Shown here piece by piece: positions 3,540 to 10,620 of a DNA stretch of 10,620 bases. The number at the start of each line of letters is the position of its first letter. Position 1 is the first letter of the stretch. Origin of the DNA: Clostridiales bacterium. GTDB taxonomy: Bacteria; Bacillota; Clostridia; Oscillospirales; Oscillospiraceae. The stretch lies in NCBI GenBank assembly GCA_029098065.1, contig JAQXNP010000032.1, positions 1 through 10,620 on the forward strand, given 5' to 3'. The position numbers and the translations under genes are program-made. The notes under the pieces were generated by a model, which made no database searches, was not told the DNA's origin, and saw only the letters and a program-made list of their open reading frames with translations.

Positions 3540-4907
3540 ATGCCCATCAAGGAAAACGTACAGGCGGCCCTGATCAAATCCGCCTACGCTTATCTGGATA
3601 AGGATCCGGAAAGCAATATCCCCAAGCTGCTGGATCTGGCCGACAAAGTTGACTCCGGCGCGTTTCAAAGCGCTTTGGCCGTGGTCCGCAAGGAACTCAC
3701 GGATAAGGACAGCAACTGGTATAAACTGGTGCTCAGCCTGTGGAGTGATATCGACGCCGGTGTCCGCAAGCGTCTGTTTGAAAACTTCGTGATCAACGCG
3801 GTCCTCAAGTGGGCCCCCCGGCGTGACGCGGCAGAAAAGCAATATAACTGCAATGTGCCCTGGGCGATTTTGATGGACCCCACTTCCGCCTGTAACCTCC
3901 ACTGTACCGGCTGCTGGGCCGCGGAGTACGGCGACAAGCTGAACATGGATCTGGACACCCTGGACTCCATTATCCGCCAGGCCAAGGAACTGGGCGTCCA
4001 CATGTTCCTCTACTCCGGCGGTGAGCCTCTGGTGCGGAAGAAGGACATCATCACCCTGTGTGAAAAGCACTCCGACTGTGTGTTCACCTGCTTCACCAAC
4101 GGCACCCTCATTGACGAGGCCTTTGCCGACGAGATGCTGCGGGTGGGCAACTTCGTCCCCGGCATCAGCGTGGAGGGCTTTGAGGAGGCCACTGATTTCC
4201 GCCGGGGCAAGGGTACCTACGCCAAGGTGGAGAAGGCCATGAAGATTCTCCATGAGAAGAAACTGCCCTTCGGCGTCTCCTGCTGCTACACCTCTCAGAA
4301 CTATCAGTCCATCGGCAGCGAGGAGTACTTCGACTGGCTGGTCAACATGGGGGCCAAGTTCTGCTGGCTGTTTACTTATATGCCCGTGGGCAACGGCGCC
4401 CCCACCGACCTGATGGTCACCGCCGAGCAGCGGGAGTACATGTACCACAAGGTGCGGGGTTACCGCAAGACCAAGCCGATCTTTACCATGGACTTCTGGA
4501 ATGACGGCGATTACGTGGGCGGCTGCATCGCCGGCGGACGGGATTATCTCCACATCAACGCCAACGGCGATATCGAGCCCTGCGCTTTTATCCACTACTC
4601 CGATTCCAACATCCATGAGAAGACTCTGCTCCAGGCCTTCCAGTCCCCTCTGTTCATGGCCTACCGGAAGGGACAGCCCTTCAGCGACAACCTGTACCGG
4701 CCCTGCCCTCTGCTGGATAATCCGGGGGCGCTGTCGGGCATGGTGGACGCCTCCGGCGCCCACTCCACCGACCTTCAGGCTCCCGAGGATGTCCATAAGC
4801 TCTCCGACAAATGCACGGAGAAGGCCGAGGGGTGGAAGCCTACGGCGGATAAGCTCTGGGAAGCGCACTGCTGCCAGTGCCGGCAGCGTTCTCAGGAGGA
4901 AAAGTAA
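3540..4907 (+). CDS. Radical SAM protein with Cys-rich C-terminus, function unknown
   Basis: A 455-residue radical S-adenosylmethionine enzyme, predicted to hold a [4Fe-4S] cluster and generate a 5'-deoxyadenosyl radical. The cluster motif CxxxCxxC is intact as C118, C122 and C125 (CNLHCTGCW), followed by the SAM-contacting YSGGEP at 158-163. A helical N-terminal extension of about 105 residues precedes the core. The C-terminal half carries further cysteines suited to a SPASM/twitch-like auxiliary cluster: C329 (GGCIAGGR), C348 (EPC), C389 (RPCP), C425, and C444, C445 and C447 (HCCQC). I recognise the overall sequence as a conserved clostridial family but know no reaction for it. The start is set by AAGGAAGG at 3524-3531, 8 nt upstream. 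It has its own extended -10 promoter and a strong terminator, so it is probably monocistronic. No RiPP precursor or maturation partner is visible beside it. Confidence 0.85.
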   Translation: MPIKENVQAALIKSAYAYLDKDPESNIPKLLDLADKVDSGAFQSALAVVRKELTDKDSNWYKLVLSLWSDIDAGVRKRLFENFVINAVLKWAPRRDAAEKQYNCNVPWAILMDPTSACNLHCTGCWAAEYGDKLNMDLDTLDSIIRQAKELGVHMFLYSGGEPLVRKKDIITLCEKHSDCVFTCFTNGTLIDEAFADEMLRVGNFVPGISVEGFEEATDFRRGKGTYAKVEKAMKILHEKKLPFGVSCCYTSQNYQSIGSEEYFDWLVNMGAKFCWLFTYMPVGNGAPTDLMVTAEQREYMYHKVRGYRKTKPIFTMDFWNDGDYVGGCIAGGRDYLHINANGDIEPCAFIHYSDSNIHEKTLLQAFQSPLFMAYRKGQPFSDNLYRPCPLLDNPGALSGMVDASGAHSTDLQAPEDVHKLSDKCTEKAEGWKPTADKLWEAHCCQCRQRSQEEK

Positions 4908-5022: not shown

Positions 5023-6489
5023 ATGTACGACAGCGACTACAAATATATTTTTTCAGAAATGCTCCGGATGTCCGATGACGGATTCATTGTTGTGGACAAA
5101 GAGGGCATTGTCGTCGATATCAATGAACTCTACTGCCAGTTTCTCGGAAAGGCCCATGATGATATCGTGGGCCGGCCCATCACGGATACGATCCCCAATT
5201 CCAAAATGGTGGACATTGTGACCAAGGGATACCGGGAAGAACTGGCCTTTCACAAGTTTGTCCCCGGCTTTGTACGGGATGCCGACAATGACTTCGTGCT
5301 GGTGAGCCGCTCCTGCGTGCTGAACGGCAGCGGCCAGGCGGTGGCCGGCGTGGCGCAGGTCCACTTCCGCCAGCAGGCCGTCCAGGTGGCCAAGCGGATG
5401 ACCAAAGCCTACAACGAGCTGGAATTCTACAAAGAGCAGTATTCCAACATGGATGACCACCAGTATACATTCCGCAACATCGTAGGCAGCAGCAAGATCT
5501 ATCAGGAGCGCATCCGGGAGGGACTCCAGGCCGCCAAGACCAACTTCCCCGTCCTGCTGACCGGGGAGACCGGTACCGGCAAGGAGGTCTTTGCCCGGGC
5601 GATCCACAACACCTCCAGCCGCGCGGACAAACCCATGGTGAGCATCAACTGCGCCGCCATCCCCGCCGACCTGCTGGAATCGGAGCTCTTCGGCTACGAG
5701 GAGGGCGCCTTCACCGGGGCGAAAAAGGGCGGAAAAAAGGGAAAGTTCCAGCTGGCTGACGGCGGCACCATCTTTCTGGACGAGATCGGAGACATGCCCC
5801 TGATGATGCAGGCCAAGCTCCTCCGGGTACTCCAGGAGAAGGAGATCGATCCGGTGGGCGGCCGGGGGCCCATCCCCATCGACGTGCGGGTCATCTCGGC
5901 CACCCGGCGGGATCTGTCCTCCATGATCCGCAGCGGAGAGTTCCGGGAAGACCTCTATTACCGCCTCAACGTCATCAACATTGAGATGAGCCCTCTCCGG
6001 GACCGCCGGGAGGATATTCCCGAACTGGCGGACTATTTCCTGGCCCGGCTGAACAACGAGTACAAGCAGTCGGTGACCTTTCAGCCCCATGTCATCGAGA
6101 GCTTCTGCCGCTATAACTGGCCGGGCAACCTCCGGGAGCTGGACAACGTGATCAAGGGGGCCTATGCCACCTGTGACGGATTTACCATTGAGCCGGGGGA
6201 CCTGCCCAGCAAGTTCCATGTGGAAGATTTTGATCCCGAGGGCGCTCAGAGCGCCGAAGTCCGGGCTCTGAGCACATTGCCCGATGAGATGGACGAAACG
6301 GCGGGGCTGATGCGGCCGATTCCCATGAAAGAGCGGCTGGAACGCATTGAATATTCAATGATCCAAAAATCGTACGAGCGCTTCAAAAGTGTGAGGAAAG
6401 CGGCGGATTATCTGGGCATGAGCATGGCCACGTTTGTCAGAAAAAAGAATTCCTATGCCGAAAAATACGGAAATGAGACGAATGAGTAG
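5023..6489 (+). CDS. PAS-domain sigma54-dependent transcriptional activator
   Basis: A 488-residue bacterial enhancer-binding protein. The N-terminal PAS sensor domain (about 8-115) is joined by a probable coiled-coil linker (about 117-140) to an AAA+ sigma54-interaction domain (about 150-385). The ATPase is complete: Walker A GETGTGKE (181-188), the sigma54-contacting GAFTGA loop (228-233), Walker B with LDE at 252-254, and REDLYYRL (308-315) with arginine-finger candidates R308 and R314. The C-terminus has a Fis/TyrR-like helix-turn-helix (about 455-475, [12 protein letters not shown]). There is no response-regulator receiver domain, so activation is probably by a small ligand on the PAS domain rather than phosphorylation. 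GGAGG at 5011-5015, 7 nt before the ATG, sets the start. The gene lies directly before a -24/-12 promoter and the acyl-CoA operon, which is its most likely target. The signal molecule is unknown. Confidence 0.93.
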
Positions 6490-6536: not shown

Positions 6537-6578
6537 CACCTCAAACGATTCAAAAGTAAATCGCTCCAAAAATAGAAC

Positions 6579-6629
6579 GGCCCTGCCACATGTTCCGAAA
6601 ATGGAACGCACGGCGGGGCCAATTTTTTT
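6579..6629 (+). terminator. Rho-independent terminator of the sigma54 activator gene
   Basis: GGCCCTGCC (6579-6587) pairs with GGCGGGGCC (6612-6620), with one T-G wobble. After a 3x3 internal loop an inner stem pairs TGTTCC (6591-6596) with GGAACG (6603-6608). A run of seven T follows at 6623-6629. It lies 90 nt after the activator stop, so transcription of the acyl-CoA operon must start again downstream. Confidence 0.88.
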
Positions 6630-6738: not shown

Positions 6739-6754
6739 TGGCACGCATTATGCA
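6739..6754 (+). promoter_or_regulatory. Sigma54 (-24/-12) promoter of the acyl-CoA operon
   Basis: TGGCACGCATTATGCA matches the RpoN consensus TGGCACG-N4-TTGCA at all but one base. The invariant GG (6740-6741) and GC (6752-6753) are separated by the required 10 nt. The predicted start of transcription is near 6765, giving a leader of about 73 nt before the crotonase gene. It lies downstream of the activator's terminator and just after an A/T-tract bend, so sequence and context agree. Confidence 0.88.
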
Positions 6755-6837: not shown

Positions 6838-7644
6838 ATGAGCGAGAAAATCAAAGAACTGGCCGGCAAGCTCGAGAACATCAGAGTTGAGCAGGAGGGC
6901 GCGATGGTCATAGTGACCATGGCCCGCCCCAAGGCCATGAACGCCCTGAACAATCAGACCCTGGATGAACTGGAAGCCATCGTGGATACCGTGGCCGTGG
7001 AGAGCGACATCCTGGGCGTCATCATCACCGGCGAGGGCAAGGCCTTCGTGGCCGGCGCCGACATCAGCCAGATGAACGGCTACGGCGCTGAGGAAGGCCG
7101 CAACTACGCCGACAAGGCGCAGGGCATCTTCAGCAAGATCGAGAACCTGGAGAAGCCCGTCATCGCCGCGGTCAACGGCTACGCCCTGGGCGGCGGCTGC
7201 GAGCTGTCCATGAGCTGCGACATCCGCATCGCCTCCGACAAGGCCGTCTTCGGTCAGCCCGAGGTCAACCTGGGCCTGGTCCCCTGCTTCGGCGGCACCC
7301 AGCGCCTGAGCCGTCTGGTGGGCACCGGCATCGCCAAGGAGCTCATCTTCACCGCCCGTCAGATCAAGGCCGAGGAGGCCAAGGAGATCGGCCTGGCCAA
7401 CAAGGTCGTCCCCGCCGACTCCCTGATGGACGAGGCCAAGGCCATGATGTCCACCATCCTGACCAAGGCGCCCATCGCCGTGCGCTATGCCAAGGTCGCC
7501 GTCAACAAGGGCGTCAACCTGGATCTGGCCAACGGCCTGGAGCTGGAGAAGGACGTGGCCGCTCTGGCGTTCGCTTCCGACGATGCCAAGGAAGGCACTT
7601 CCGCGTTCCTGGCCAAGCGCCCCGCGCAGTTCCAGAACAAGTAA
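6838..7644 (+). CDS. Enoyl-CoA hydratase / 3-hydroxyacyl-CoA dehydratase (crotonase family)
   Basis: A 268-residue crotonase-family enzyme, cytosolic, expected to interconvert a 3-hydroxyacyl-CoA and the trans-2-enoyl-CoA (for example 3-hydroxybutyryl-CoA and crotonyl-CoA). The oxyanion-hole motifs are present: GKAFVAGADI (68-76) and NGYALGGGCEL (113-123). Both catalytic glutamates are retained, E122 and E142, spaced 20 residues as in E144/E164 of rat mitochondrial hydratase. In the usual loop PGFGGTQRL the Gly is Cys (C150), a minor difference. Retention of both acids argues for hydration/dehydration rather than another crotonase chemistry. GAGAAGGG at 6820-6827 precedes the ATG at 6838; the ATG at 6828 is out of frame. 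It is the first gene of the operon behind the sigma54 promoter and occupies the position of CaiD in a Cai-like set. Heavy use of GCC, ATC and AAG codons suggests high expression. Confidence 0.9.
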   Translation: MSEKIKELAGKLENIRVEQEGAMVIVTMARPKAMNALNNQTLDELEAIVDTVAVESDILGVIITGEGKAFVAGADISQMNGYGAEEGRNYADKAQGIFSKIENLEKPVIAAVNGYALGGGCELSMSCDIRIASDKAVFGQPEVNLGLVPCFGGTQRLSRLVGTGIAKELIFTARQIKAEEAKEIGLANKVVPADSLMDEAKAMMSTILTKAPIAVRYAKVAVNKGVNLDLANGLELEKDVAALAFASDDAKEGTSAFLAKRPAQFQNK

Positions 7645-7663
7645 TTTTGACGAAGCCATGACA

Positions 7664-7687
7664 GGACCGCGCAGTCCCGCGCGGTTC
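7664..7687 (+). other. Hairpin between hydratase and permease genes
   Basis: GGACCGCGC (7664-7672) pairs with GCGCGGTTC (7679-7687) over 9 bp with one G-T wobble and a 6-nt loop, in the 71-nt gap between the genes. No T-run follows, so read-through into the permease is expected. It may stabilise the upstream message and so set different levels for the soluble enzyme and the membrane protein. Confidence 0.5.
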
Positions 7688-7715
7688 CGAGAAATTAGAG
7701 AGTGGAGGAAAACAA

Positions 7716-9023
7716 ATGTCTGATATGATCGGCCTAATCGGCCTAATTGCGGCATTCGCCCTACTGATGTGGATGATCATGAAGGGCTTCAACATCTACC
7801 TGACGGTGTTTGCCTGTACTCTGGTGGTGGCGCTCACCAGCCAGATGAACGTCTACGAAGCTTACAAGGTCCACTTTATGACCGGCTTTACCAACTTCTT
7901 CAAGAACAACTTCCTGATCTTCCTGACCGGTACCCTGCTGGCCAAGGCCATGGATATCACCGGCGCGGCCAAGTCCATCGCAAAAGCCATCATCAAGATC
8001 ATGGGTACCAAATGGGCCTTCGTCTCCGTGCCTCTGGCCTGCGCCATTCTGTGCTACGGCGGCGTCACCGCCTTCGTGTGCTCCTTCGGCGTTATCTCCA
8101 TCGCCCTGCAGGTGTGGGAGGCCGCTGACCTGCCCCGCCGTGCCATCCCCGGCGCCCTGTGCTTCGGCTGCTCCACCTTCGCCATGATCGCCCCGGGCGC
8201 TGTCCAGATCCACAACAACGTGCCCGCCACCAACCTGGGCACCACCTACATGGCCGGCGCTGTCAATGGTTTCATCTCCTGCGGCTTCATGCTGATTGCC
8301 GGCATGATCTACCTGAAGTTCTGGCTGGATCGGGCCAAGAAGCGCGGCGAGCACTTCGTGGCCAAGGAAGGCGACGATATGGGTTCTGCCGATGAGGTTC
8401 TGCCCAATCCCATCGTGGCTCTGCTGCCCCTGGTTATCACCATCATCCTGGTGAACCTCAAGGTCGGCTCCTTCTCCTGCCCCCCCGAGGCCGGCGTGCT
8501 GGCCGGTGCTGTGTCCGCCGTACTTCTCATGAACAAGTACGTGGATATGAAGAGCATTCCCCAGGTGTTTGCTGACGCGGCTGCCATGGCCATTGTCTCC
8601 TGCACCAACACCTGCGCCGTCAACGGCTTCGGCGGCGTAGTTTCCAACAGCCCCGTGTTCTCCATCATCACCAATGCGGTGGTTGGCCTGCCCGGCCTGT
8701 TCGGCCTGCTGATCGGCACCAACATCATCTGCGGTATCTGCGGCTCCGCTTCCGGCGGCCTGGGCATCGCGGTGCCTATCCTGGGGCCTGCCTACGTCAA
8801 TGCGGGTATCTCTCCCGCCGCTGTCCACCGCGTAATGGCTCTGTCCTCCTCCGCGCTGGACTCCCTGCCCCACAACGGTTACATCGTCACCGTTACCAAC
8901 GGCCTGTGCCGCGAGACCCACAAGGATTCCTACGGTCTGACGTTCGTCCTCACCGTGGTTATCCCCTTCATCGGCGCTCTCATCGGCACCGTGCTGTTCA
9001 CCGTGTTCCCCAACCTGCCCTGA
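7716..9023 (+). CDS. GntP-family permease, probable hydroxy- or unsaturated-carboxylate transporter
   Basis: A 435-residue polytopic inner-membrane protein with about 11-12 hydrophobic segments (for example 5-23, 26-43, 62-79, 100-133, 145-162, 178-203, 232-248, 258-272, 284-305, 314-358, 407-431). There is a polar cytosolic-type loop around 204-230. The pattern fits the GntP/CitMHS-like anion symporter group. It includes intramembrane polar stretches such as HNNVPATNLGT (166-176) and SSSALDSLPHNGYIVTV (377-393), resembling the substrate-site repeats of these carriers. GntP members carry gluconate and other hydroxy acids; B. subtilis YxjC, a related permease, sits beside CoA-transferase and hydroxybutyrate dehydrogenase genes. 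GTGGAGG at 7702-7708 sets the start. Between a dehydratase and a CoA-transferase, it most likely imports the acid those enzymes handle, or exchanges it for the product. The substrate is inferred only. Confidence 0.8.
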   Translation: MSDMIGLIGLIAAFALLMWMIMKGFNIYLTVFACTLVVALTSQMNVYEAYKVHFMTGFTNFFKNNFLIFLTGTLLAKAMDITGAAKSIAKAIIKIMGTKWAFVSVPLACAILCYGGVTAFVCSFGVISIALQVWEAADLPRRAIPGALCFGCSTFAMIAPGAVQIHNNVPATNLGTTYMAGAVNGFISCGFMLIAGMIYLKFWLDRAKKRGEHFVAKEGDDMGSADEVLPNPIVALLPLVITIILVNLKVGSFSCPPEAGVLAGAVSAVLLMNKYVDMKSIPQVFADAAAMAIVSCTNTCAVNGFGGVVSNSPVFSIITNAVVGLPGLFGLLIGTNIICGICGSASGGLGIAVPILGPAYVNAGISPAAVHRVMALSSSALDSLPHNGYIVTVTNGLCRETHKDSYGLTFVLTVVIPFIGALIGTVLFTVFPNLP

Positions 9024-9071
9024 TGATTGGAATCAGGATTATTTGACTAACGCAGTTTTCCATCAAGACCC

Positions 9072-9129
9072 GTTCAGCGGTGCGGCGTTACCTCCACGGA
9101 ACCTTCCACCGTCAGCCGCACCGCTGGAC
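9072..9129 (+). other. Long-stem hairpin between permease and CoA-transferase genes
   Basis: GTTCAGCGGTGCGGC (9072-9086) pairs with GCCGCACCGCTGGAC (9115-9129) over 15 bp with one T-G wobble, closing a 28-nt loop. It lies in a 165-nt gap. What follows (CTAAGGGCTTTCACTG) is not a T-tract, so it is at best a weak terminator or attenuator; an mRNA processing or stabilising stem is equally likely. No known riboswitch fold was recognised. Confidence 0.6.
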
Positions 9130-9188
9130 CTAAGGGCTTTCACTGATTGATAATGGATTCATGGATACCAAGAAAGGAGCTTTCCCCT

Positions 9189-10427
9189 ATGTTTAAACCT
9201 CTTGAGGGTGTTAAAGTCATTGATCTGACCTACTTTGTAGCCGGCCCCGGCGCTGCCCGGATCCTGGCCGACTGGGGCGCCGACGTCATCAAGGTCGAGC
9301 CCAGCTTCGGCGATCCCGGACGCGGCACCGGCGCCACCATGTCCTGCCCGACCCAGCCCGACTGCAACCCCTTCTACACTGCCTATAACGCCAACAAGCG
9401 GGGCATGTCCCTGAACCTGAAGAGCGAAGAGGGCAAGGCCATTCTGGACAAAATGCTGGAGACCGCCGACGTCTTCGTGTCCAGCTACCGCACCGGCGCT
9501 CTGAAGCGTCTGGGCCTGGACTATGAGTCCATGAGCAAGAAGCATCCCCACATCATCTGGGCGCAGATCAACGGCTTCGGCGACTTCGGTCCCGCCAAGG
9601 ACAACGCCGGCTTCGATACCGTGGCCTTCTGGGCCCGCTCCGGCGCCATGATCGATCTGACCGAGAAGAATACCAGCCCCATCAACCCCCTCATCGGTTT
9701 CGGCGACGCCACCACCTCCTGCTCCCTGTCCGGCGGCATCTGCGCGGCCCTCTATCAGAAGGCCAAGACCGGCAAGGGCTGCAAGGTCATGGTTTCCCTG
9801 TTCTCCCAGGCCATCTGGAGCGAGAGCGCCGGCATGGTCTCTACCCAGTACGGCGACGAGTATCCCAAGAGCCGTCTGAATCCCGGTTCCCCCGTCATGG
9901 ATACCTACAAGAGCTCTGATGACAAGTGGTTCTACATGAGCATCCTGGAGCCTGACCGCTACAACAACGCCCTCTTCAAGGAACTGGGCCGGGAGGATCT
10001 GGTGGATCACCCCGACTACTCCACCGCCGCCGCCTCCAAGGCTCACAGCGCTGAGCTGGTGGAGATCCTGGCCGCGGAGTTCGCCAAGCACACCATGGAG
10101 GAGATCGAGGGCATGTTTGCCCGGGCCGACATCGCCTACGACCACGTGCAGCACATCAAGGAGGTCCTGGACGATCCCCAGGCGCTGGAGAACATGTACA
10201 TCGTGCCCGTGAAGAACAACGACGGCACCGTCACCAAGCAGCCCATGTCCCCCATCCGCTTCGCGCTCACCGAGCCCAAGACCATCGAGGATATCGCCCC
10301 CACCGTGGACCGTCAGGCGCCCCGTATCGGCCAGCACACCGTGGAGATCCTGAAGGAGTACGGCTATTCCGACGCTGAGATCGAGAAGTTCCTGGCCGAC
10401 AAGGTCGTGACTGCGGACAAGGCGTAA
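9189..10427 (+). CDS. Family III CoA-transferase (CaiB/BaiF; FldA/HadA-like)
   Basis: A 412-residue class III CoA-transferase, cytosolic, which moves CoA from an acyl-CoA donor to a free carboxylic acid without spending ATP. The N-terminus LEGVKVIDLTYFVAGPGAAR and ADVIKVE are typical of the family. The expected catalytic Asp, which forms the acyl-anhydride intermediate, is D143 in AGFDTVAFWARSG. From memory, the segments SSYRTGALKRLGLDYE and GFDTVAFWARSG, and the C-terminal HTVEILKEYGYSDAEIE, resemble clostridial FldA (phenyllactate) and HadA (2-hydroxyisocaproate) transferases more than formyl-CoA transferase. The start at 9189 has AAAGGAG at 9173-9179, 9 nt upstream; an in-frame TTG at 9147 has no such site. 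Its place in the operon parallels CaiB: it would load CoA onto the imported acid, probably from the saturated acyl-CoA product. No 2-hydroxyacyl-CoA dehydratase (HadBC/FldBC) is in view, so a 3-hydroxy or 2-enoic acid is a better guess than a 2-hydroxy acid. Confidence 0.88.
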   Translation: MFKPLEGVKVIDLTYFVAGPGAARILADWGADVIKVEPSFGDPGRGTGATMSCPTQPDCNPFYTAYNANKRGMSLNLKSEEGKAILDKMLETADVFVSSYRTGALKRLGLDYESMSKKHPHIIWAQINGFGDFGPAKDNAGFDTVAFWARSGAMIDLTEKNTSPINPLIGFGDATTSCSLSGGICAALYQKAKTGKGCKVMVSLFSQAIWSESAGMVSTQYGDEYPKSRLNPGSPVMDTYKSSDDKWFYMSILEPDRYNNALFKELGREDLVDHPDYSTAAASKAHSAELVEILAAEFAKHTMEEIEGMFARADIAYDHVQHIKEVLDDPQALENMYIVPVKNNDGTVTKQPMSPIRFALTEPKTIEDIAPTVDRQAPRIGQHTVEILKEYGYSDAEIEKFLADKVVTADKA

Positions 10428-10479
10428 TCATTTCATATCGCGTAGCCGCGTGTAGTGTAATCGAAGGAGGCTTATACTT

Positions 10480-10620
10480 ATGCAGCTGAATGAAGACCAA
10501 AAGATGATCCAGGAGCTGGCTCGGAACTTTGCGGAGAGCGAGCTTGCGCCGATCGCGGCGGAGATTGACAAAGAGGAGCGGATCCCGAAGGAGATCATCG
10601 AGAAGATGGCGGAGATCGGC
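10480..10620 (+). CDS. Acyl-CoA dehydrogenase, N-terminal part (3' end outside window)
   Basis: Only the first 47 codons are present and remain open to the window edge. The sequence begins MQLNEDQKMIQELARNFAE, followed by ELAPIAAEID and IPKEIIEKMAEIG. This is the characteristic N-terminal helical domain of FAD-dependent acyl-CoA dehydrogenases of the short-chain / butyryl-CoA type. AAGGAGG at 10464-10470, 9 nt before the ATG, supports the start. In this operon it would reduce the 2-enoyl-CoA made by the hydratase, with electron-transfer flavoprotein (EtfAB) as partner, as CaiA does with FixAB; EtfAB genes might follow outside the window. Its codon choice differs from the three operon genes before it: five of six Ala codons are GCG and none is GCC. 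The FAD and catalytic-base regions cannot be checked here. Confidence 0.88.
   Translation, partial: MQLNEDQKMIQELARNFAESELAPIAAEIDKEERIPKEIIEKMAEIG

Follow-up and report, generated by a model that had tools for sequence, protein, structure and literature searches.

A sigma-54 operon of an Oscillospiraceae bacterium that may reduce 3-hydroxybutyrate, and its sister module

The stretch analysed here (the window) comprises 10,620 nucleotides of a Clostridiales bacterium of the family Oscillospiraceae (contig JAQXNP010000032.1, C32), and all coordinates refer to this contig, one of 221 in a 1.71-Mb assembly (G000) that is 90% complete and 2.6% contaminated. Its 3′ part carries genes for a crotonase, a GntP-family permease, a family III coenzyme A (CoA)-transferase and an acyl-CoA dehydrogenase (acd1), preceded by a −24/−12 promoter and a PAS-domain activator. 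We propose, with a probability of about one half, that this is a substrate-induced sigma-54 operon that reduces a short 3-hydroxy acid, likeliest 3-hydroxybutyrate to butyrate, and that a sister module in the same genome probably handles the other enantiomer. The features of the operon are as follows.

5023..6489, + strand: PAS–sigma-54 activator (enhancer-binding protein), YctR-like (Sigma54_activat E 9.7e-72, PAS, HTH_50)
6562..6579, no strand: possible imperfect second copy of the candidate activator site, picked out by eye
6591..6608, no strand: candidate activator-binding palindrome TGTTCC-N6-GGAACG (pattern search against shuffles)
6739..6754, + strand: sigma-54 −24/−12 promoter TGGCACGCATTATGCA (motif search and conserved core in orthologous loci)
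6838..7644, + strand: crotonase/short-chain enoyl-CoA hydratase, ECH1 (PF00378; 5z7r match; catalytic Glu pair)
7716..9023, + strand: GntP-family permease (named homologues, predicted fold)
9072..9129, + strand: hairpin in the permease/CoA-transferase spacer (15-bp arms 9072–9086/9115–9129, z −2.26)
9189..10427, + strand: family III (CaiB/BaiF) CoA-transferase (PF02515 E 5.8e-93; Asp173)
10480..10620, + strand: first 47 codons of acd1, cut by the contig end (identical to C133:1–141 and C30:3268–3408; whole gene read on C133)

Loci for comparison were chosen by similarity of the transferase, 15 from GTDB contigs and others from genomes of the genus, family and class; genes were called with a codon-scored caller in G+C-rich loci and by tblastn in the A+T-rich L044. 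At E 1e-120 the transferase occurs in 7 of 400 family genomes and 2 of 391 class genomes, the own genome counted each time. Once duplicates were removed (L033 = L026, L039 = L027, and L054–L058 = L034, L035, L064, L065 and L062), 17 loci had a transferase with an identity of roughly 59% or above. Crotonase, permease and transferase follow one another in one order and on one strand in 16 of 16 distinct loci, the window included, and the 17th (L027) reads permease–MaoC–transferase–dehydrogenase. A dehydrogenase comes next in all 15 loci whose contig passes the transferase (L042 ends inside it); only its first codons are in view in the window, L034, L035 and L037, and it is split over three frames in L064. 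The conserved four-gene order is confirmed as a real observation, beyond chance. Three loci with a transferase at 51–56% (L045, L060/L066 and L059, the last seen for 1.5 kb on each side) show no permease beside it. The operon also occurs in Intestinimonas butyriciproducens (G218, whose transferase equals P0149 from residue 2 onwards) and in Clostridioides (L063, G705; transferase 98% identical to P0260), where the order is crotonase–permease–transferase–dehydrogenase–EtfB–EtfA, followed by the activator.

The four enzyme classes that a first-pass annotation had named between 6838 and 10620 are all supported. The best solved relative of the crotonase is the short-chain-enoyl-CoA hydratase 5z7r (273 bits), followed by the 3-hydroxypropionyl-CoA dehydratase 5zai (226 bits), and the catalytic residues E122 and E142 are both kept in 16 of 16 loci. 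Homologues of the permease are named GntP family permease, and many of them, at 53–66% identity, carry PF02447. The window permease itself has no direct Pfam match at E 10, PF02447 included, and no convincing solved relative by sequence search; its predicted fold resembles ArsB/TRAP/INDY carriers. The assignment to GntP is supported by these homologues and this fold. The transferase is 61% identical over 409 residues to the C. difficile CoA transferase P0260, and D173 is kept in 16 of 16 sequences (15 of the 16 loci plus the MaoC-type variant, with L042 left out). For the dehydrogenase, taken from its C133 copy, the nearest solved relative is 5ol2 (438 bits), which we take to be the C. difficile butyryl-CoA dehydrogenase complex with electron-transferring flavoprotein (Etf), and the match to the caffeyl-CoA reductase CarC is lower (327 bits). 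Its E361 is kept in 12 of 12 sequences, two of them from sister modules.

The −24/−12 site is the single match in the window, with zero mismatches in a search that allowed one; 0.36 matches are expected by chance, and 62 of 200 shuffles of the window contain at least one, so that the site taken alone is weak evidence. Its weight comes from the orthologous loci, 14 of 16 of which keep the sigma-54 core 5′ of the crotonase gene (0–10 of 300 shuffles per region score as high); the contigs of the other two, L041 and L042, start within 272 bp of that gene. Sigma-54 itself is encoded in the window genome. A PAS sigma-54 activator adjoins the operon in 10 of 16 loci, 5′ or 3′ of it and divergent in L044. 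It is absent from L038 (21 kb covered) and not in view on five short contigs. The window activator is 61% identical over 398 residues to the Clostridioides regulator in L063. The site and its conservation support the sigma-54 control suggested earlier. A palindrome with perfect 5-bp arms and a 6-bp spacer, a pattern defined after viewing the sequences, is present in 5 of 14 upstream regions and missing from 9, against shuffle means of 0.00–0.04 per region.

The spacer between permease and transferase holds a G+C-rich hairpin whose sequence differs between loci. Of 14 orthologous spacers that were folded (those of the window, L040 and L043 in part; L042 and L044 left out), 12 gave z between −1.2 and −4.7, eight of them reaching −2 or below, and the signal is weak in L036 and L063. 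An Rfam search of the window gave no match. The hairpin may adjust how much carrier is made relative to the enzymes.

The window ends inside acd1, at a fork in the assembly: its last 141 bases are the first 141 of contig C133 and also the last 141 of contig C30. C133 continues with the whole of acd1, a MaoC hydratase, a second crotonase (ECH2), a family I CoA-transferase, a second permease, another dehydrogenase and then fatty-acid synthesis genes. C30 begins with the 3′ end of a 3-hydroxybutyryl-CoA dehydrogenase gene, a start piece being on C67; it also encodes a second sigma-54 activator, on the opposite strand, and has a sigma-54-like site, TGGCACGAAAAATGCA, ahead of acd1. The first 82 bases of C107 are the 3′ end of an acd1 copy, with 1 mismatch, and are followed by a strong hairpin and unrelated genes. 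Two acd1 copies are present, belonging either to a single strain or to two strains binned together. Their first 141 bases are the same and 81 of the last 82 match, and the sequences diverge immediately 5′ of the ATG and shortly after the stop. The joins window–acd1–C107 and C30–acd1–C133 appear likeliest, because L049 has activator B beside Acd1–MaoC and because C107 starts with a second acd1 end; a direct continuation of the window into C133 was rejected on the same grounds. With the window–C107 join so assigned, the operon probably ends after acd1 without etfAB.

The first-pass annotation had pointed to EtfAB as genes to look for downstream. None follows acd1 in the window genome as far as the operon can be traced on C133, C30 and C107. 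Among 11 relatives with the whole dehydrogenase in view, three (L036, L044 and L063) have etfBA 3′ of it; the contig of another, L040, stops 470 bases after the dehydrogenase. In the genus, Etf was found in 7 of 16 genomes.

The sister module of the window genome, on C133, reads Acd1–MaoC–ECH2–family I transferase–permease, and its dehydrogenase gene is near-identical to the window acd1 over the ends compared. We refer to crotonase-bearing sets as S-modules and to MaoC-bearing sets as R-modules, since crotonases give (S)- and hydratase 2 enzymes (R)-3-hydroxyacyl-CoA. The tightest R-form, L119 in an Intestinimonas relative (G088), has family I transferase–Acd1–permease b–MaoC with a divergent activator B, and its Acd1 is 89% identical to that of C133. 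Within the window genome, permeases a and b share 34% identity, and sequence comparison found no significant similarity between the family III and family I transferases or between crotonase and MaoC. The MaoC protein matches PF22622, PF01575 and the MFE-2 hydratase-2 model. The catalytic motif of hydratase 2 contains Asp, Asn and His, and the residues G-D-x-N-x-[LIV]-H are kept in 12 of 12 sequences (10 R-modules, L027 and L045), with Leu in place of the Pro of the hydratase-2 motif. Close MaoC relatives, at least 71% identical, occur in 11 of the 21 family genomes that match at E 1e-60, and in 10 of these 11 an acd1-type dehydrogenase, whole or in part, stands beside them; L072 instead has ECH2 and an activator. 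Five of the seven family genomes with an S-module also have an R-type set (G000, G088, G297, G360 and, as the variant L027, G014).

Copies of acd1 were located at window 10480–10620, L009 1–1134, L010 3268–3408, L048 1–82, L064 7831–8960 and L119 12011–13120. In G088 the S- and R-copies are 96.2% identical in DNA over 1158 columns and only 82.2% and 84.0% identical to the C133 gene, which argues that the two copies within a genome evolve together. On a tree of 22 dehydrogenases, of which 10 are S, 7 are R and 5 belong to neither group, S- and R-sequences are intermixed: the labels need 4 changes, starred branches force at least 2 of them, and neither group stays whole in any of 200 bootstrap trees; since 55–56 of 500 label shuffles are as low as observed, the labels are not significantly clustered. 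The contigs break where a collapsed repeat would break them: the window after 141 bases of acd1, the S contigs L034 and L037 after 138 and 149, and the S contig of G360 after 107, with the R contig of that genome starting inside the end of an acd1. As separate observations, the flanks in G000 are unrelated right before the ATG and after the stop, as if the open reading frame alone had been copied or converted, and several contigs break within acd1; in G088 the S-module acd1 (L064 7831–8960) lies in three pieces in different frames and the R-module copy in L119 is open.

Gene content, order and conservation, the promoter, the catalytic residues, the near-identity of the acd1 ends and the 96% identity in G088 are seen directly; the direction of the pathway, its substrate, stereochemistry and inducer we infer. 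The PAS activator would sense a ligand and open the promoter at 6739, and the permease, judged by family and fold, would import the acid. The transferase, with Asp173 present, would move CoA from an acyl-CoA onto the acid; the crotonase, with both Glu residues, would dehydrate the (S)-3-hydroxyacyl-CoA; and the dehydrogenase would reduce the resulting enoyl-CoA with electrons from Etf. The saturated acyl-CoA would then serve as CoA donor for the following substrate molecule, and the freed acid would leave the cell. The sister module, with an R-type MaoC, another permease, another transferase and nearly the same dehydrogenase, would probably serve the second enantiomer. The earlier proposal of uptake, CoA exchange, dehydration and reduction is supported as a logic, with C4 metabolism encoded near the sister module; its option of a 2-hydroxy acid is unlikely, given that crotonases act on 3-hydroxyacyl-CoA and that no other gene lies among the four.

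A C4 substrate is favoured because 5z7r and 5ol2 are the nearest solved relatives, because a butyryl-CoA:acetate CoA-transferase occurs in three R-module neighbourhoods and because C30 carries the 3-hydroxybutyryl-CoA dehydrogenase fragment. The transferase model (cut-off 675) is passed by proteins on C30, L050 and L126 (794, 767 and 823), directly after MaoC in the latter two; a cut relative in L051 scores 316. That both modules use one reductase with opposite hydratases and different carriers suggests that they serve the two enantiomers of a single acid, and in the simplest reading (S)- and (R)-3-hydroxybutyrate would converge on one crotonyl-CoA reductase. We rank 3-hydroxybutyrate first as the likeliest substrate and 3-hydroxypropionate or acrylate second.

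Several results weigh against this proposal. The C4 evidence stems from the sister module and not from the window operon, the substrate cannot be read from sequence, and the stereospecificity of the two hydratases is inferred here from family knowledge. The two acd1 copies of G000 could be those of two strains mixed in one bin. A genome-wide search with an EtfB query and PF01012 found no Etf in the window genome; a control search with PF01012 was positive in 10 of 14 named genomes, and this absence is weak because the assembly is only 90% complete. In the part of PMC7438776 available to us, an effect of sigma-54 on the C. difficile crt1 operon, of the same type, was not seen in TY medium. Finally, the acryloyl-CoA reductase model AcrC (NF042972, cut-off 640 bits), the best NCBIfam model for the dehydrogenase, is passed by 5 of 16 module dehydrogenases, namely those of the S-modules L063 (Clostridioides, 696), L044 (E. 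yurii, 712) and L036 (670) and of the R-modules L124 (705) and L125 (683), so that some members of the family are compatible with a C3 route.

That C3 route, in which imported 3-hydroxypropionate or acrylate would, once activated, be dehydrated to acryloyl-CoA and then reduced to propionyl-CoA, yielding propionate, is unlikely, if a serious competitor. All 16 module dehydrogenases score higher on AcrC (542–712) than those of the crt–hbd–bcd–etf operons L127 and L128 (504 and 511), those outside both modules (L045, L051, L121 and L129) scoring 465–523; moreover, the second-best solved relative of the crotonase handles 3-hydroxypropionyl-CoA, and an achiral acid would make crotonase and MaoC interchangeable. 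The dehydrogenases of the window type nevertheless miss the cut-off (594 for the C133 copy; 580, 570 and 586 in L062, L026 and L065), as do all 11 of this type and its nearer relatives, L027 included (542–594). Two parallel modules with different permeases would also be redundant for a single achiral acid, and the butyryl-CoA:acetate-type transferase lies near the sister module. Somewhat less probable again is another short, branched or aryl 3-hydroxy or 2,3-unsaturated acid as electron acceptor: family III transferases and acyl-CoA dehydrogenases accept many acids, no enzyme of the set fixes the chain and the permease has no solved relative by sequence, but crotonase and dehydrogenase group with short-chain enzymes and CarC scores lower than 5ol2.

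That the set is a carnitine or crotonobetaine operon whose carrier has been replaced is very improbable. The cai operon of enterobacteria follows the same logic of carrier, CoA-transferase, crotonase-fold hydratase and acyl-CoA dehydrogenase, and its enzyme classes match those of the window, but it has a BCCT carrier, CaiC and CaiE, and neither CaiC nor CaiE is found between the window genes. The likeness to it noted in the first-pass annotation holds for the logic and fails for membership, with 135 bits for the CaiB model NF002914 (cut-off 413), 213 for the CaiA model NF002885 on the C133 copy (cut-off 540) and a GntP carrier. A canonical butyrate operon was likewise rejected, no hbd or thiolase gene lying between 6838 and the window end. 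We also regard the reverse direction, in which butyryl-CoA would be oxidised and hydrated and 3-hydroxybutyrate exported, as improbable: fermenting anaerobes need electron sinks, and a ligand-sensing sigma-54 activator would fit uptake better. For it speak the reversibility, in principle, of the steps and the finding, in the accessible part of PMC10290957, that colonised mice have ten times as much 3-hydroxybutyrate in the large intestine as germ-free mice.

The reduction of 3-hydroxybutyrate can be extended, tentatively and with more doubt than confidence, to an enantiomer-split sigma-54 pair of the Oscillospiraceae. In this reading the S-module would consist of crotonase, GntP permease a and a family III transferase, and the R-module of MaoC hydratase 2, GntP permease b and a transferase of family I or of the butyryl-CoA:acetate type. 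Each module would have its own activator, both would use the same acyl-CoA dehydrogenase, and gene conversion would keep its two copies alike within a genome. Between them, the two modules would convert 3-hydroxybutyrate of either configuration, the host ketone body among them, to butyrate with no oxidation step. Against the twin-module part stand the L119 transferase and permease, only 45% and 52% identical to their C133 counterparts, and the search of family genomes, in which the S-carrying G218 and G329 had no R-type set (no close MaoC) and seven genomes had a close MaoC without a window-type transferase. In addition, the MaoC module of G014 combines a family III transferase 84% identical to that of the window with a more distant dehydrogenase, and the R-module dehydrogenase of G297 is not Acd1.

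The first-pass annotation had called the set uncharacterised, yet as an architecture it is already in print. Table 1 of PMC6615313 gives a predicted YctR sigma-54 regulon crt–gntT–caiB–bcd–etfAB in Clostridioides, filed under butyrate/butanol synthesis, along with related sigma-54 sets. Table 4 of PMC7438776 has the C. difficile 630 operon crt1–CD0801–catB–bcd–etfBA2 (CD0800 = crt1) with a mapped start site and the regulator CD0806/YctR. The accessible text of PMC10458976 names CD630_08000 as a 3-hydroxybutyryl-CoA dehydratase (Crt1), and that of PMC8428550 describes CD0802, down-regulated in biofilms, as having an adhesin function; its position within the crt1 operon would make CD0802 the CoA-transferase, and the adhesin label may be a mix-up. 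Because the same architecture is in print, we regard the window as a further member of this known type. Genes, order, −24/−12 promoter and adjacent PAS-type activator are the same, and the Clostridioides copy L063 is 68% (crotonase), 53% (permease), 61% (transferase), 59% (dehydrogenase, C133 copy) and 61% (activator) identical. The window differs in that no etfBA was found after the dehydrogenase in its genome, in an activator upstream and not downstream, and in a dehydrogenase of another subclade. Another known sigma-54 set, compared by its description, shares sigma-54 control, a GntT carrier with a CoA-transferase and butyryl-CoA steps but lacks the crotonase–permease–CaiB–dehydrogenase set. 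The bbu gamma-butyrobetaine cluster of Emergencia timonensis, as described in the portion of PMC8364193 at hand, is likewise substrate-induced in gut Clostridia and pairs a class III CoA-transferase with an acyl-CoA dehydrogenase-type flavoenzyme. It differs in having two transferases, a ferredoxin, a betaine/carnitine/choline carrier and a thioesterase, no crotonase, and a flavoenzyme that eliminates trimethylamine. What is new here is the second sigma-54 module in the window genome, with an R-type MaoC, another permease, another CoA-transferase and nearly the same acd1.

The operon type has thus been in print since 2019–2020 as "butyrate/butanol synthesis" or as an enzyme list, and the available portions of PMC6615313, PMC7438776, PMC10458976 and PMC8428550 name no substrate for it. 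If 3-hydroxybutyrate is indeed reduced, the operon would give a genetic basis for gut bacteria turning a host ketone body into butyrate, and Intestinimonas butyriciproducens, which carries it, is an isolate that would allow its substrate and inducer to be tested. The available part of PMC7244492 reports conversion of D-beta-hydroxybutyrate to butyrate in faecal cultures, assumes a dehydrogenase route, states that two Coprococcus species in pure culture did not use the compound and makes no mention of a reduction route without an oxidation step.

Other arrangements of these gene families were also seen. L129 1600–8763 (G008) holds a further sigma-54 set of divergent activator, crotonase, family I CoA-transferase, dehydrogenase, EtfB and EtfA, with no permease. 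Two GntP permeases each occur in L117 5469–10250 (crotonase–permease–CaiB–permease) and in L118 2256–15001 (permease–crotonase–permease–dehydrogenase–CaiB–CaiB–crotonase–dehydrogenase, with EtfBA upstream). In the window itself, a radical SAM/SPASM protein is encoded at 3540–4907, 5′ of the activator; the 25 NCBIfam matches listed for it are all far under their cut-offs, and no counterpart was seen in the annotated loci of relatives.

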